This document shows positions 21,662 to 27,026 of a DNA stretch of 64,000 nt, piece by piece. This stretch comes from Thermoactinomycetaceae bacterium. Its GTDB lineage: Bacteria > Bacillota > Bacilli > Thermoactinomycetales > Thermoactinomycetaceae. Position 1 is the stretch's first letter. Each line of letters begins with the position of its first letter. Below the pieces are notes generated by a model. The model made no database searches, was not told the DNA's origin, and was given only the letters and a program-made list of their open reading frames with translations. The translations under genes were made by a program, and so were the position numbers. The stretch spans positions 1 through 64,000 of the forward strand of contig JANWIG010000058.1 of NCBI GenBank assembly GCA_025449975.1, read 5' to 3'.

Positions 21662-21710
21662 TACGGCTTGCATGAAACGGAGCATTTTATGAAAGCGGTT
21701 CAATAAAACA

Positions 21711-21748
21711 GAAAAAACCTTTGTCAGATCGCGACAAAAGTTTTTTTC
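21711..21748 (-). terminator. Terminator after the frameshifted GerP-like gene
   Basis: AAAACTTTTGTC pairs with GACAAAGGTTTT (one mismatch) and ends in a T-run on the minus strand, about 20 bases after the stop expected from the frame-corrected gene. Confidence 0.6.
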
Positions 21749-21765
21749 GTCTCTTTTGTTTTTTT

Positions 21766-22064
21766 CTATTCCTGTATACTCGGAAATATCGTAATTTTTT
21801 CCGCGCCTTCTTCTTGTGGGTGATTCGTCTCTTTAGGCGAGCGGCTCTCCATTTTTTGGAATGAGCATCGTAAAGCAGTGTATCTACCTGATCCTGGTCG
21901 GCAAGAAAAGTGTAATTATGTTGAAAGACATTGTTTCCACATAGATTGCCGACCACATGCTGATCTTTCGACAATGTTCGAACGCCGATCTGGTTTTTAC
22001 CGATCAGTAGGGCTGTTCTACCATCGGACTCATTGATTAATATCTTGCGGAACGCGATCTTGAT
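21766..22064 (-). pseudogene. GerPA/PF-like spore protein, apparent frameshift and non-standard start
   Basis: The minus-strand reading LLIGKNQIG, VVGNLCGNNVFQHNYTFLADQDQVDTLLYD follows the GerPA/PF pattern shared by its neighbours. After DAHSKK the frame turns into an implausibly basic tail that runs through a terminator. Adding one base to the A6 run (T6 at 21852-21857 as printed) gives ESRSPKETNHPQEEG...IQE and a stop at 21766, just before that terminator. At the 5' end AGGGAGGAG is followed five bases later by ATC (22064), with no ATG or GTG in reach. It is either decayed or carries sequence errors. Confidence 0.5.
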
Positions 22065-22086
22065 AACGTCTCCTCCCTTCTAAAAT

Positions 22087-22118: not shown

Positions 22119-22173
22119 GATCGAGAGGTTCAGCCCACTTTAGGAAATCAACTGCACACACGTGCCCTGGTCG

Positions 22174-22182
22174 CATAGATTA
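22174..22182 (+). promoter_or_regulatory. Sigma-K-like -10 box before the GerP-like pair
   Basis: CATAGATTA fits the mother-cell sigma-K -10 consensus CATANNNTA, about 48 bases before the ATG at 22231. gerP operons are sigma-K dependent in known Bacilli. Confidence 0.5.
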
Positions 22183-22230: not shown

Positions 22231-22488
22231 ATGGCTGGATCTGTGATTTTTAACGCCATTAACACCGGGACAATGGCTCAAAACAACGCGATCATGGTTG
22301 GGGAGAATTCCGCTTCCGGCTGGGATTCTCATAGTAAAACCCAACTCTCATCCGGCTATGTGTTTAGTGCATTTGGAGCACCTAATGTATTTTTTTCGAA
22401 TCTCTATGTTTTGAACGATAATGATCTGTTAGATACGGTAATCGCCGATGGATTTGAAACCAAAGCCAGCCCAACTACCCAGGTGTAA
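22231..22488 (+). CDS. GerPA/GerPF-family spore germination protein
   Basis: 85 residues. The family core is clear: VIFNAINTGTMAQNNAIMVGEN, SGWDSHSKT, then an aliphatic stretch and NDNDLLDTVIAD. GerP proteins are made in the mother cell and help germinants pass the spore coat. AGGGGGGG precedes ATG 22231. The next GerP-like gene begins seven bases after the stop. Assignment within the family (PA versus PF) is not possible by eye. Confidence 0.75.
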   Translation: MAGSVIFNAINTGTMAQNNAIMVGENSASGWDSHSKTQLSSGYVFSAFGAPNVFFSNLYVLNDNDLLDTVIADGFETKASPTTQV

Positions 22489-22494
22489 TGGAAG

Positions 22495-22767
22495 ATGACG
22501 ATCCAAAAAAAAGATGGATATGATTTTATTCAATTTGATTCGATCAACGTCAACGTCGTTTCGGGCAACGCCGGAATATTTATCGGTACCAATTATCAAT
22601 TTTGTTGGAACTCACATTCCAAAGAAAACAGCGCTTTTGGTGGGATTTCCGGGCATTCCAATATTGTTCAGCAAAATATAAATCTCCTTGTTGACAATGA
22701 CCTCATCGATACCCCGATCGATGATCGCGATCTCTTTCTCCATCAACAACATTCATCTTCTGCTTGA
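22495..22767 (+). CDS. GerPA/GerPF-family spore germination protein
   Basis: 90 residues. It keeps the shared pattern: FIQFDSINVNVVSGNAGIFIGTN, CWNSHSKEN, FGGISGHSN, DNDLIDTPIDDRD. It is read with the preceding paralogue (seven-base gap). Its last 25 bases overlap the end of the convergent GerP-like gene on the minus strand, so the two mRNAs are complementary at their 3' coding ends. Confidence 0.75.
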   Translation: MTIQKKDGYDFIQFDSINVNVVSGNAGIFIGTNYQFCWNSHSKENSAFGGISGHSNIVQQNINLLVDNDLIDTPIDDRDLFLHQQHSSSA

Positions 22768-23054
22768 TTTTGTGCATGAGCAGCGATGTTTTGCATGGTT
22801 TTCTTAAGCCATTCGGGAAGCTCGTCTGAATTGGCTAGAGTAAACAGATCCATGAAAGCCCCATCTTCCAGCTCGGATTTTGTCCCCATAATCCGGCTAT
22901 AATCACCGCTGATCGAGCCAAACCCTTGATTTTGCTTTTGATGGCTTTGAAAATGAGTAGGTAAATTATTTCCTAAATTGATACAAGATGCTCCCTCAAC
23001 ACTCTTAATATGAATAGAACCAATAAAAAATTGGGGGGACAAAAAAGAGTTCAT
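22743..23054 (-). CDS. GerP-family protein (GerPE/PF-like)
   Basis: 103 residues. FFIGSIHIKSVEGASCINLGNN, then HFQSHQKQNQGFGSISGDYS gives the family signature; a helical C-terminal extension (LPEWLKKTMQNIAAHAQNQAEDECC) ending in two cysteines is extra and could cross-link into the coat (inference). GGAGGGG lies just before ATG 23054. It is the last gene of a minus-strand unit hsp20 - gerP-like - gerPC-like - this gene. Confidence 0.7.
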   Translation of the reverse strand: MNSFLSPQFFIGSIHIKSVEGASCINLGNNLPTHFQSHQKQNQGFGSISGDYSRIMGTKSELEDGAFMDLFTLANSDELPEWLKKTMQNIAAHAQNQAEDECC

Positions 23055-23055
23055 C

Positions 23056-23517
23056 TCAACCCCTCCGCTTTTTCCTTTCTATTTTTACCCTGTATCCCAA
23101 AAGGGTTTGTTCGATTTCCCGCTGTTCATGGAAATCCTCTTTCGAAGTCACCTTCTCATCATCCTGAAGAATCGATGCTGTCTGTATTTGATGGTTCCCC
23201 TCCTCTGATCGAACAGAATCTTTTTCTTTCTTTTTTGGTTCTTGCTCTTTTTTCATTTTGTAAATAGCATCTTTTTTTCTTTTTTCTTTCGTGACCATCT
23301 CAAAATTATTACCGATACTTAGTGAACCACTTAGCTCTTTTACATTGATCCGCTCAAGCTGGTATGTAAGATTTTCTAAATATGGATCATAGACCGTCAT
23401 CTGTTGGACTTGAAAATGTTGATGAACGGGTTTTTGCTTCAGTTGTTCCAATTTTTCCTCAATCGATTGCAATCGTTGTAAAATCTGCTCTAATTCCCCG
23501 CTCATTCCTTTTTCCAT
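23056..23517 (-). CDS. GerPC-like spore germination protein
   Basis: 153 residues. An N-terminal coiled coil (LEQILQRLQSIEEKLEQLKQK) is followed by HQHFQVQQMTVYDPYLENLTYQLERINVKELSGSLSIGNN in the GerPC manner, then a highly charged Lys/Glu tail. Its start overlaps the end of the upstream GerP-like gene by 16 bases; the stop is one base before the next start. AAGGGAAAC supports the ATG at 23517 rather than the internal one at 23505. Confidence 0.75.
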   Translation of the reverse strand: MEKGMSGELEQILQRLQSIEEKLEQLKQKPVHQHFQVQQMTVYDPYLENLTYQLERINVKELSGSLSIGNNFEMVTKEKRKKDAIYKMKKEQEPKKKEKDSVRSEEGNHQIQTASILQDDEKVTSKEDFHEQREIEQTLLGYRVKIERKKRRG

Positions 23518-23708
23518 GTTTCCCTTCCAGGAGATTTTACTGCGCTTATTCCTCCCTGAAAAGAACCATGATCACCGGAAACATCTCCAAATCCTTGATT
23601 TACTTTCTTCGAACTTCGCCAATAAAATAAATAATTGTCACCAGAAAAAACGCCTGATGATTTCGAAACCGATTGGACAATCAATTGACCTAACTTGATT
23701 TGAACCAA
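23502..23708 (-). CDS. GerPA/PF-family spore germination protein
   Basis: About 68 residues from TTG 23708, which is eight bases past AAGGGGAG; an in-frame GTG at 23717 touches that site. QIKLGQLIVQSVSKSSGVFSGDN, YWRSSKKVNQGFGDVSGDHGS shows the family core with SHSK replaced by RSSK. The following gene overlaps its end. It begins 14 bases after the Hsp20 gene, so it belongs to the same transcript. Confidence 0.7.
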   Translation of the reverse strand: MVQIKLGQLIVQSVSKSSGVFSGDNYLFYWRSSKKVNQGFGDVSGDHGSFQGGISAVKSPGRETWKKE

Positions 23709-23722
23709 ATTGTTCACTCCCC

Positions 23723-24172
23723 TTAGATCCCAAAACTGCTTTCGTCTGCGTATTCAACTTGGACTTCCATCTCGGGATGGCTCAACTTTTCAAGCTTCAC
23801 AGTCAGTAATCCCTGATTATAGCGAGCTTTGAGAGAGCTAGGATTGACAGCGCTGGAAAGTGGAATCTCTCTTTTAAAGCGTCCATGATAACGCTCTTTA
23901 AGTATTAAATCTTTCTCTACGACTCCTTCATAAAATTCCAATTTTCCTTCGACAATTAGCCTATTGTTGACCAGTTGAACTTTTATCTGATCAGGTCTCT
24001 TTATCCCTGGCGCTTCCACCACCACCACGATTCTTTTTTTGGTCTCATACGCATCTACCCGAGGACCCAAATTGGGCATCATCCCCATTATGTTTTGCCA
24101 AAAATCACTTCCTAACATTTCCGCTTGCGATTGGAGCGACTGCCAATCGAAGTGAGGGGGTTTATATTTCAT
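23723..24172 (-). CDS. Hsp20 / alpha-crystallin small heat-shock protein (possible spore coat type)
   Basis: 149 residues. The alpha-crystallin domain is seen from DAYETKKRIVVVVEAPGIKRPDQ through LIVEGK to SSLKARYNQGLLTVKL. ATG 24172 follows AAGGAAGG; a GTG nine bases upstream is too close. It heads the minus-strand GerP-like operon. B. subtilis CotP is an Hsp20-like coat protein, so a coat role here is reasonable but inferred only from the operon context. Confidence 0.8.
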   Translation of the reverse strand: MKYKPPHFDWQSLQSQAEMLGSDFWQNIMGMMPNLGPRVDAYETKKRIVVVVEAPGIKRPDQIKVQLVNNRLIVEGKLEFYEGVVEKDLILKERYHGRFKREIPLSSAVNPSSLKARYNQGLLTVKLEKLSHPEMEVQVEYADESSFGI

Positions 24173-24277
24173 CGGGATCACCTTCCTTATTTCCGCATGG
24201 TGTTATTCTCTTTATGTCAATATATGTATCCATTCGCCAACTTAGAAAGCAAAGTTATTATATTTCTTTCTAAATCG

Positions 24278-24323: not shown

Positions 24324-25181
24324 TCAAAACCCCTGTTTCTGCTCTATTTTGTTTTTAACCAACCACTCATAAAACTCCTGAACATTCCGCGGTATCTTTT
24401 TTCCTTGACGCAGCGCTTGGGGAAACAAATCCCATAACTCTACCAGCAATGGGACGCCAAGTTTCAATTGGACAAGCAACTCTTTTTCACCAAACACCTC
24501 GGCGGGCTCTCCTTCGAGCACGATCTGTCCACGATGCATCACAAATACCCAATCCGCCCATGAGAGTACCCAATCGATATCGTGGGTTGCCATCAGAATC
24601 GTCGTCCCCGCTTGCTCAATTCGCTCCATTTCCTCCCGAAATTGATTGGTTTGAAACGGATCAAGATAAGCCGTTGGTTCATCCAGAATCAGTAGACTGG
24701 GCTTTAAGGCCATCACGCCAGCCAACGAAACCCATTTTTTCTGCCCGAGACTAAGATGGTGAAGCGGTTTTGCCGCTAGCTCCTCCAATCCAAAATCGAT
24801 CAGTGCTTGCTCCACGCGCCGTTTCACTTCTTCATCGCAAAGCCCCTGATTATAGAGACCATAAGAAAGATCTTCTTCTACCGTCGCTGCCACCAGTTGT
24901 TGCTCAGGATCTTGGAAAACGAGCCCGATTTGCTGTCGGATCTCGCTTAAACAACGACGGTTGTATTTTAGCGTCTTCCCTTTCCATAAGACCCTTCCAT
25001 GATTCGGGCGAAGCAATCCATTGGCATGTAAAAACAACGTCGATTTTCCGCAACCATTGTGACCCATTAAGACACACTTCTTCCCTTTGGGCACCTTCAG
25101 CGATAGATCACGTAAAGCTGGCTGCTTTTCACCTGGATAGGTAAATGTCAGATCGATGAATTCGAGTATCCATTTATCCAA
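24324..25181 (-). CDS. cbiO: Cobalt ECF-type transporter ATPase CbiO
   Basis: 285 residues from TTG 25181, which follows AAGGGGGAG. Walker A GHNGCGKST (40-48), Q-loop GLVFQDPEQQ, signature LSLGQKKW and Walker B LLILDEPTAYLD are complete. It powers Co2+ import with CbiQ and CbiMN. The start lies two bases past the cbiQ stop, implying coupling. Annotating from the upstream in-frame GTG would add eight codons inside cbiQ. Confidence 0.92.
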   Translation of the reverse strand: MDKWILEFIDLTFTYPGEKQPALRDLSLKVPKGKKCVLMGHNGCGKSTLFLHANGLLRPNHGRVLWKGKTLKYNRRCLSEIRQQIGLVFQDPEQQLVAATVEEDLSYGLYNQGLCDEEVKRRVEQALIDFGLEELAAKPLHHLSLGQKKWVSLAGVMALKPSLLILDEPTAYLDPFQTNQFREEMERIEQAGTTILMATHDIDWVLSWADWVFVMHRGQIVLEGEPAEVFGEKELLVQLKLGVPLLVELWDLFPQALRQGKKIPRNVQEFYEWLVKNKIEQKQGF

Positions 25182-25183
25182 TA

Positions 25184-25966
25184 CTAGCTCCCCCTTAGAT
25201 ACCAATCCAAGACCAGCAAAACAAGTACGCCCATCATCGACTCAAGCAAATAACGTTTGGAGACGGGTTTTGATGGTCGTTGATAGACACGGATCTCACC
25301 TGTAAATCCTCGAGCTGCCAGCCCCAGCGACAACTGCCGATAACGAATGAGCGTTTTTTGAAAAAGATTGGCGATGAGGAACCCCATACTGCGAAAACGC
25401 CGCTCCCCACCGCGCGCTTGGATCGCGATCCATTGCTGCTCGGCGCTCATCCAAAAGCTAAAAATAAAGCGATACATGACGAGGAGAATTTCTGTGATCA
25501 TGGTGGGACAACCGATCTTCCTTAAAAGCTGCATGATTTCGGCAAAAGGTGTCGTCAAAACGAGAAAAAGCAAACAAGAAACCGCTGCCAACGAACGAAC
25601 AAAGACGGTCCCTCCTTGCTCCAACCCCTGTTCACTTAGATAGAGAAACCAGTCTCCGATCGCCCATCCCCCCATGGAATCATCCTGTACAAGGGACTGT
25701 TCATCAAGTGGAACCACATGGACTACGAGCATCGGTAAGCTCATCAATAAAAAAAGAGAAATCATCCCCGTCATTTTTAAATAAAATGGAATCGGAATCC
25801 GAGCATAGACGACGATCCAAATCCCCATCCAGATGAAAATCATCATCTGGACGGGAACATGCGTAAAAAACGTCAAACCTAACATTCCCAATGCAAACAG
25901 CCCTTTTTGTTTCGCTGGTAGCCCCCTTAAACGATTGGTATAGGTGAGCCTTTCCAATGATGTCAT
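25184..25966 (-). CDS. cbiQ: Cobalt ECF transporter transmembrane protein CbiQ
   Basis: 260 residues with five or six hydrophobic segments. The coupling helices of the T component are visible (about 165-215), including AIQARGGERRF and LAARGF, the two Ala-Arg-Gly motifs that contact the ATPase. It overlaps the cbiN stop by four bases. Role: scaffold joining CbiM/CbiN to CbiO. Confidence 0.9.
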   Translation of the reverse strand: MTSLERLTYTNRLRGLPAKQKGLFALGMLGLTFFTHVPVQMMIFIWMGIWIVVYARIPIPFYLKMTGMISLFLLMSLPMLVVHVVPLDEQSLVQDDSMGGWAIGDWFLYLSEQGLEQGGTVFVRSLAAVSCLLFLVLTTPFAEIMQLLRKIGCPTMITEILLVMYRFIFSFWMSAEQQWIAIQARGGERRFRSMGFLIANLFQKTLIRYRQLSLGLAARGFTGEIRVYQRPSKPVSKRYLLESMMGVLVLLVLDWYLRGS

Positions 25967-26268
25967 GTTTTCTTTTCACCACGTCCCTTTACACGCCCCC
26001 GATAGAAGCCGATCGCATAGCCGATCACCCCTGCACCAATCGCAGCTTGTACAGAAAAAAACAGCGTCTCTGTTTCGCCTCCAGGCAATTCAATCAACGA
26101 CTCAAACCACGGCTCATAGGTTGGCGCAATCTCTTGAATCGCTTCTTCCGCTTGCCCATCGGCACCGGCAAACTCACTATCTTGGATGAGGATGAGCGGA
26201 ATAACCGCTAACAACACAACCGAGATCACCAAGACTAAATTCGTCCACATACGGCGCTGTTTCTCCAT
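25963..26268 (-). CDS. cbiN: Cobalt transport protein CbiN
   Basis: 101 residues with two membrane helices (about 8-24 and 70-90) and an extracytoplasmic loop bearing the family FAGADGQAEEAIQEIAPTYEPW pattern. CbiN assists metal loading into CbiM. Start and stop overlap the neighbours by one to four bases. Confidence 0.88.
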   Translation of the reverse strand: MEKQRRMWTNLVLVISVVLLAVIPLILIQDSEFAGADGQAEEAIQEIAPTYEPWFESLIELPGGETETLFFSVQAAIGAGVIGYAIGFYRGRVKGRGEKKT

Positions 26269-27026
26269 TATTTCGTCCCCTTCTTTCCAAAATGAAGTAA
26301 ACGCAGCTCTTTTTGGTTATAGGATTGAATTAAATTTAAGACCAATACCGTTAACAACCCCTCACTGATCGCTAACGGAACCTGTGTAATGGCAAAAATG
26401 CTCGCAAACTTTACAAACGAAGCGAGAACTCCACCTGCTTCTGCTGGGAAAGCCAAGGCAAGTTGCAGTGAAGTGACTACATAAGTGGTTAGATTAGCCA
26501 AAGCCGCTGCGAGAAAAACAGCGAAACCCTGTTTATCGCTGATCCGCATCATCAAGCGGTAAACGCCATAGGCGACCGCCGGTCCGACCACTGCCATTGA
26601 AAACGCATTGGCTCCTAAGGTTGTCAGCCCACCATGCGCGAGCAGCAACGCTTGAAATAACAAAACCATACTGCCCAGCACAGTCATCACCCACGGACCA
26701 AATACAATCGCTCCCAATCCCGTTCCCGTCGGATGGGAACTACTCCCTGTCACCGAAGGAATTTTTAAAGCAGACAAGACAAACGAAAAGGCTCCCACAA
26801 GCGCGACCAACAACTTTACCTCTGGATTCTCTTGGATCACGCGACGAAGTGAGCGAAGACCTAGAATAAAAAAGGGAAGAAATAAAACCCACCAAGTAAT
26901 CGCCCATCCCACGGGTAAAAAACCTTCCATGATATGCATCGCATGCACTTCTTGCGGTGTAGCAAAGGTGAAATAAAGAGTGAAACCGACCAGTAGAAGT
27001 CCTTTTAACCAGAATAACTTGTTCAT
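26268..27026 (-). CDS. cbiM: Cobalt-binding transport protein CbiM
   Basis: 252 residues. A 28-29 residue leader ends in EVHA, directly followed by [12 protein letters not shown]. In the family the metal site is formed by a free N-terminal Met-His, so cleavage after EVHA would expose it; that is a sequence-based inference. Further hallmarks are [28 protein letters not shown] and six or seven helices. First gene of the operon, controlled by an upstream cobalamin riboswitch, which argues for cobalt rather than nickel. Confidence 0.93.

Follow-up and report, generated by a model that had tools for sequence, protein, structure and literature searches.

The window analyzed here, i.e., the whole 64 kb stretch of DNA from a Thermoactinomycetaceae bacterium (contig C58 of a 2.52 Mb assembly), contains a compact two-strand cluster of genes for small GerP-like proteins together with a gene for an Hsp20/alpha-crystallin sHSP (Table 1). 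The plus-strand unit A-B (22231–22767) converges with the minus-strand unit Hsp20-E-D-C (24172–22743), and the tails of C and B overlap by 25 bp. Genes A and B are separated by 6 bp, D and C by 1 bp, and in the ATGA at 23505–23502 the stop codon of E overlaps the possible start of D. Because the minus-strand genes follow each other almost without gaps, they look like a single operon. As a previous sequence-only reading had proposed, Hsp20 stands first in this unit; its best start is the ATG at 24172, with a GTG at 24181 as an alternative, and its stop ends at 23723. No repeats or inverted repeats of at least 18 bases were found around the cluster. Beyond it (24324–27026, minus strand), genes of an ECF-type transporter were recognized by eye, encoding an ATPase, an EcfT-like and a CbiM/N-like protein.

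Table 1. Genes and sequence features of the GerP-like/sHSP cluster in the window.
Feature	Position	Strand	Evidence or remark
A, GerPA/PF-like, 85 aa	22231..22488	+	no Pfam match at E<1
B, GerPA/PF-like, 90 aa	22495..22767	+	PF10676, E 6e-4, 20.5 bits, below cut-off of 27.3
C, GerPA/PF-like with acidic C-terminal tail, 103 aa	22743..23054	-	PF10676, E 8e-5, 23.3 bits, below cut-off
D, GerPC-like, 153 aa, start possibly at 23505	23056..23517	-	profile comparison with canonical GerPC
E, short GerPA-like, 71 aa, GTG start	23502..23717	-	PF10676, E 0.08; orthologous in position and sequence
Hsp20/alpha-crystallin sHSP, first gene of the minus-strand operon	23723..24172	-	PF00011, E 1.9e-13, 50.8 bits, cut-off 20.8
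F, decayed GerPA-like paralogue, divergent from A	21690..22079	-	E 6e-9 to the expanded family model
Sigma-K-like promoter (candidate), AC-N16-CATAGATTA	22156..22182	+	48 bases 5' of the ATG of A

The sequence-only reading had counted four intact GerPA/PF/PE-like proteins, one GerPC-like protein and one damaged paralogue. Four intact small proteins (A, B, C and E) are indeed present, but the label GerPE had to be given up since the genome contains no match to PF10970. Protein E has no terminal D-x-D-x-x-D; the same is true of 28 of the 68 orthologues (the one from the window included), so it represents a normal short form, and we dropped the idea that E is a damaged paralogue. The damaged gene is F, which lies, however, outside the interval 22231–24172 to which it had been assigned. 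The usual start codon is absent from its normal place in F and the frame crosses a terminator-like hairpin (21746–21712); F is best read as a relic. A core common to all GerPA/PF-like members had also been described, but 'SHSK...DNDLxDT' occurs literally in A and B only, while C and E contain S-x-x-K-x-N-x-G-x-G-x-x-x-GD.

Assignment to families by HMM, suggested earlier as a check, succeeded directly for Hsp20 alone, whose alpha-crystallin domain scored above the cut-off. The other proteins missed the Pfam cut-offs: in the comparison with PF10676, A gave no match, B and C scored as listed in Table 1 and E reached 13.6 bits, while D had no match to GerPC (PF10737; cut-off 22.4 bits). NCBIfam named only Hsp20 among the cluster proteins, with a score below the cut-off. 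Since the Pfam matches were sub-threshold or absent (Hsp20 excepted), family alignments were built from orthologues and compared with alignments of canonical GerP proteins from relatives of the same class that carry the full operon. All these alignments were small (effective sequence numbers 1.8–3.7), so the following E-values are approximate: the D family matched canonical GerPC with E 9.5e-10, the B family matched canonical GerPA/F with E 1.5e-7 (probability 94%), and the matches of the A family (E 9e-5, 59.5%) and the C family (E 3.2e-4, 38.6%) to GerPA/F were modest. By the same approximate measure, the B and C families matched each other with E 3.2e-13, GerPE and GerPB shared the first part of GerPA (E 1.5e-6 and 4.3e-5, respectively), and the comparison of the GerPC and GerPA profiles gave no match.

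The match of D to GerPC covers the first 50 of 175 columns. It includes the N-terminal coiled coil and the L-x-G-x-L-N-I-G motif of GerPC, represented in D by a coiled-coil-like stretch and L-S-G-S-L-x-I-G-N-N; the C-terminal part of GerPC (columns 51–175) is unmatched. Thus, the GerPC-like gene of the earlier reading is borne out. AlphaFold models of C and B were of low confidence (mean pLDDT 55.9 and 52.1, respectively). Taken together, the proteins of the cluster other than Hsp20 are distantly GerP-like and are not GerP by curated thresholds.

To describe the distribution of the cluster we started from protein C, its most conserved member. A search of genome contigs with C matched 162 stretches, 106 of which encode a relative, and the best 80 of these 106 were kept; within them the identity to C is 41–60% over the best segment. 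The carriers among these 80 include Paenibacillus, Cohnella, Halobacillus, Sutcliffiella, Bacillus, Fictibacillus, Alicyclobacillus and others, as well as Thermoflavimicrobium dichotomicum, a member of the same genus group as the window. Gene profiles revealed an sHSP gene in 79 of the 80 loci, and the only one without it (L196) has just 423 bases before C. The GerPC-like gene D was present in 80/80. The order of the window, counted as sHSP, an optional second sHSP, E, D, C and then two opposed GerPA-like genes, recurs in 47 of these best 80 loci across Bacillaceae and Paenibacillaceae, so the arrangement is more than chance and the two-strand cluster with Hsp20 reported earlier is real. In loci of Paenibacillus and Bacillus, the outer gene on the minus strand is the orthologue of A. 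Judged by sequence comparison, the cluster is a widespread, apparently undescribed gene neighbourhood of spore-forming bacilli.

Most carriers also possess GerPE, the marker of the canonical operon, which was found in 22 of the 29 searched genomes with the cluster. The seven genomes without it belong to T. dichotomicum, Shimazuella soli, three Alicyclobacillus, Pullulanibacillus pueri and Paenibacillus glucanolyticus. We regard the locus as a distant paralogue of gerPABCDEF, one that generally occurs alongside GerPE.

In the order to which the window belongs the situation is different with respect to GerPE. Neither GerPB (PF10803) nor GerPE (PF10970) was detected in the genome of the window or in any of the 42 genomes of the order; among the 61 genomes searched they were found in seven and six, respectively, all outside the order. 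This agrees with the earlier view insofar as no canonical gerPABCDEF operon was found elsewhere in the genome, and it means that an entire order of spore formers manages without these two proteins in the form recognized by Pfam. GerPC scored above its cut-off in 37/42 genomes, PF10676 was present in 39 and PF00011 in 40, and the last two were found within 1.5 kb of each other in 36. Seven of the 42 genomes contain a strong match to C (E at or below 5.2e-29).

The search with PF10676 revealed a second GerP-sHSP locus in the genome of the window, on contig C14 (G000:C14:5209-6762, L004). It encodes GerPF (55.4 bits), an Hsp20 (33.2 bits) and a divergent GerPC (50.1 bits), as well as two further proteins: a short one that resembles GerPA/GerPB and has a tail rich in proline, and one that is GerPA-like (31.4 bits). 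Read by eye, the short protein stands for GerPB; PF10803 gave no match to it. Its proline-rich tail occurs in most relatives. For the C14 GerPF, as for the family of C, no solved structural relative was found by sequence. GerPC, sHSP and GerPF occur together in 19 of the 20 fetched C14-type loci; the exception, L080, covers 3 kb of a short contig and includes just the GerPA part. The C14-type locus is order-wide and is the nearest thing to a lineage-specific replacement of gerP. In an order without GerPB and GerPE the window-type locus exists beside a second GerP-sHSP locus.

The sHSPs of the different loci were compared in a tree of 60 sequences. The sHSPs of the C14-type locus (cluster 1) form one group (12 rows, support 82/91), as does the second sHSP, h2, of the window-type locus (cluster 2; 10 rows, 100/99). 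The main sHSP of cluster 2 (20 rows) and the unlinked sHSPs (15 rows) required two changes each on the tree, compared with one each for cluster 1 and h2; each of these numbers was matched by 0/500 shuffles. The sHSP of the window falls among the cluster-linked sequences, outside the main unlinked group. Three sHSPs with long branches (L224, L225 and L107) could not be placed, the warning of the tool covering L224 and L225. In the L107 locus (G048), an Hsp20 gene lies divergently beside gerPA of a canonical gerPABCDEF-type operon.

The proportion of linked sHSP genes varies between genomes. In Bacillus tequilensis all three PF00011 genes (L222, L224, L225) are located beside GerPA-like genes, and L224 also contains a GerPC-like gene. 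We take L224 to be the yocL-yocM-yocN region and L225 to be cotP-ydgA-ydgB, the neighbours of the latter presumably being ydfR/ydfS and expZ. Two of three sHSP genes are linked in Paenibacillus elgii (G066) and in the genome of the window, and one of three in Bacillus sp. RO1 (G063) and in H. dabanensis (G067), where the surroundings of two of the three were inspected. In the order as a whole, 37 of 83 PF00011 matches lie within 1.5 kb of PF10676 and 46 are unlinked. The link between GerP-like genes and sHSPs is therefore strong, not universal.

A sigma-K-like box before the plus-strand pair had been noted by the sequence-only reading and was found, CATAGATTA being located at 22174–22182 with AC 16 bases upstream, as in the sigma-K consensus. 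Full matches of the type AC-N16-CATAGATTA occur four times in the 64 kb window, against 1.0 expected, so that the box alone is no more than suggestive. Nor is it conserved upstream of A in other loci, where CATANNNTA was found in 4/56 cases (2.8 expected). The main cluster-2 sHSP is preceded by CATANNNTA in 34/73 loci (5.4 expected) and C in 1/81 (3.6 expected), but many of these loci, including the Paenibacillus ones, are close relatives, so that the counts lack independence. AC at a spacing of 15–17 is absent from all 34 sites that precede the sHSP, and the sHSP of the window itself is not preceded by CATANNNTA. Most Paenibacillus sites share a further conserved block, CCATAATCC/CCATATTCC, which we take to resemble the sigma-E -35 element.

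Comparison of the window with other carriers revealed an affinity to Paenibacillus. Identity to Paenibacillus/Cohnella proteins is 51% for A, 52–54% for B and 57% for C, as against 31, 35 and 44%, respectively, for the congener T. dichotomicum. In a tree of A+B+C (57 rows) the window groups with five Paenibacillus species (100/97), while T. dichotomicum sits among Bacillaceae-like rows; pairing of the two was rejected (p-AU 2e-8), with the reservations that the window is on a long branch and that the tested pair was picked after the identities had been seen. Since A, B and C group with Paenibacillus and not with the congener, the copy may be acquired; it probably descends from a Paenibacillaceae-like lineage or has a common origin with one, and a transfer is likely. 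Contamination by a foreign contig was considered as a source of this affinity and rejected, as tetranucleotide usage of the window flanks looks native (0.66 and 0.68 with C14, 0.59 and 0.68 with T. dichotomicum, 0.35 and 0.48 with Paenibacillus). A comparison with empty sites gave no result, the flanking EcfT-like protein being unmatched in three genomes (G001, G002, G003).

The main alternative for the origin of the copy, compatible with any reading of its function, is vertical inheritance with hidden paralogy and no transfer, the window and T. dichotomicum having retained different ancient copies. The long branches and tree warnings are in line with it, as is the host-like tetranucleotide usage of the 3.6 kb cluster (0.50 and 0.43, against 0.29 for Paenibacillus), a measure that is noisy at such length. 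On the other side, the seven genomes of the order in which C has a strong match contain only one such match each, so no genome shows both copies. We consider hidden paralogy a serious possibility, somewhat short of probable. The data also show that GerP-like loci underwent duplication and may have moved between families.

The copy in T. dichotomicum differs from that of the window in other respects. A frame change has disrupted its E, and its D is without the N-terminal part. A short frame at L054 2387–2587 resembles, by eye, the start of the second sHSP type, which is absent from the cluster in the window. A cupin-like gene, also recognized by eye (L054:2623-3816), separates the broken E region from the gene for the main sHSP, as if inserted there.

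The cluster resembles the gerPABCDEF operon of B. subtilis, B. cereus and B. anthracis in combining small GerPA/PF-type proteins with a GerPC-type protein. It differs from it in the two convergent units, in the presence of an sHSP, in the absence of GerPB and GerPE matches and in the GerPC-like protein, which is without the C-terminal half. GerP proteins are located in the inner coat, where channels through which germinants pass are thought to be formed by them (PMC11841064). B. anthracis has two extra gerPF copies, gerPF2 and gerPF3, with overlapping germination function, and B. subtilis and B. cereus are said to possess two untested gerPF orthologues (PMC2817736). Like the cluster, gerPF2 and gerPF3 are extra paralogues outside the operon, but they are closer copies of GerPF (79 and 59% nucleotide identity), and the accessible part of the source mentions no sHSP (PMC2817736).

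Two kinds of loci described above are nearer to the cluster in that they include an sHSP. The C14-type locus likewise combines GerPA/F- and GerPC-type genes with an sHSP; in contrast to the cluster, its members exceed the Pfam cut-offs, its sHSP belongs to another group and it has the short proline-rich protein. In the B. tequilensis loci L225 and L224, presumably cotP-ydgA-ydgB and yocL-yocM-yocN, an sHSP also adjoins GerPA-like genes, but the gene order is different and the sHSPs are too diverged to be placed in the tree. In the open-access literature, searched mostly by titles and abstracts, we found no paper tying GerP-like genes to sHSPs (Hsp20, CotP, YocM or alpha-crystallin), which is weak evidence of novelty.

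We lean towards the explanation that a spore-coat locus widespread in Bacillales, a GerP-like/sHSP module served by its own sHSP, is present in the window in one copy, and regard this as somewhat probable. According to this model, the genes would be expressed in the mother cell of sporulating bacteria, and in the inner coat the GerPC-like protein would provide the scaffold for the GerPA-like proteins. These are small and probably oligomeric, and the sHSP may be their assembly chaperone or structural partner, keeping them in solution until their incorporation into the coat. Once assembled, the GerP-like proteins might, like GerP itself, modulate how small germinants traverse the coat. The conserved linkage across Bacillales suggests a testable answer to the question of what the clients or partners of these sHSPs are, namely the GerP-like proteins, and it bears both on germinant passage via GerP and on the role of alpha-crystallin-like coat proteins.

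The genes could instead encode general structural inner-coat proteins comparable to CotP/YdgA/YdgB; these would take no part in permeability or germination, and the sHSP would be just another coat protein. Locus L225 of B. tequilensis, with its sHSP and two GerPA-like genes that we take to be cotP-ydgA-ydgB, would suit this explanation, and ydgA is described as sigma-K-regulated in the accessible part of one source (PMC9319509). The constant GerPC-like partner, found in all of the best 80 of 106 loci, points to a GerP-type assembly, and we regard a purely structural function as unlikely, if still worth keeping in mind. Less plausible still is a protective role of the sHSP, which would guard sporulating cells or spores against aggregation and have the GerP-like genes as neighbours by co-regulation only. 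YocM is reported to be protective in B. subtilis under salt stress, according to a title cited in PMC10536567, and the 46 unlinked PF00011 matches of the order (by the 1.5 kb PF10676 measure) are consistent with such a function; however, several locus types pair different sHSP groups with GerP-like genes, which is more than co-regulation alone would need and makes this quite improbable. Finally, the earlier proposal of a lineage-specific split and expansion of the gerP operon, replacing gerP for coat permeability, accords with the absence of GerPB and GerPE from the order but is very improbable, given the same arrangement in other families (47/80 among the best 80 of 106), GerPE alongside it in 22/29 genomes, strong C matches in only 7/42 genomes of the order and the C14-type locus (19/20) as a better candidate.

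Beyond the single locus, we tentatively suggest that spore formers may carry several parallel GerP-like coat assemblies, each with a dedicated sHSP serving as a chaperone or built-in scaffold of the layer through which germinants pass; this is conceivable, and we would not yet call it probable. If it is true, GerP-like partners would explain the function of coat sHSPs such as CotP.

It should be added that other arrangements of GerPA-like genes were observed in individual genomes. At L096 (G016:C21, 4100–5673) five or six GerPA-like genes lie in tandem on one strand, a local expansion; neither an sHSP nor a GerPC gene was seen in its vicinity. At L097 (G016:C24) and, in Shimazuella soli, at L137 (G020), several GerPA-like genes form mixed clusters with an sHSP whose type is distinct and matches weakly.
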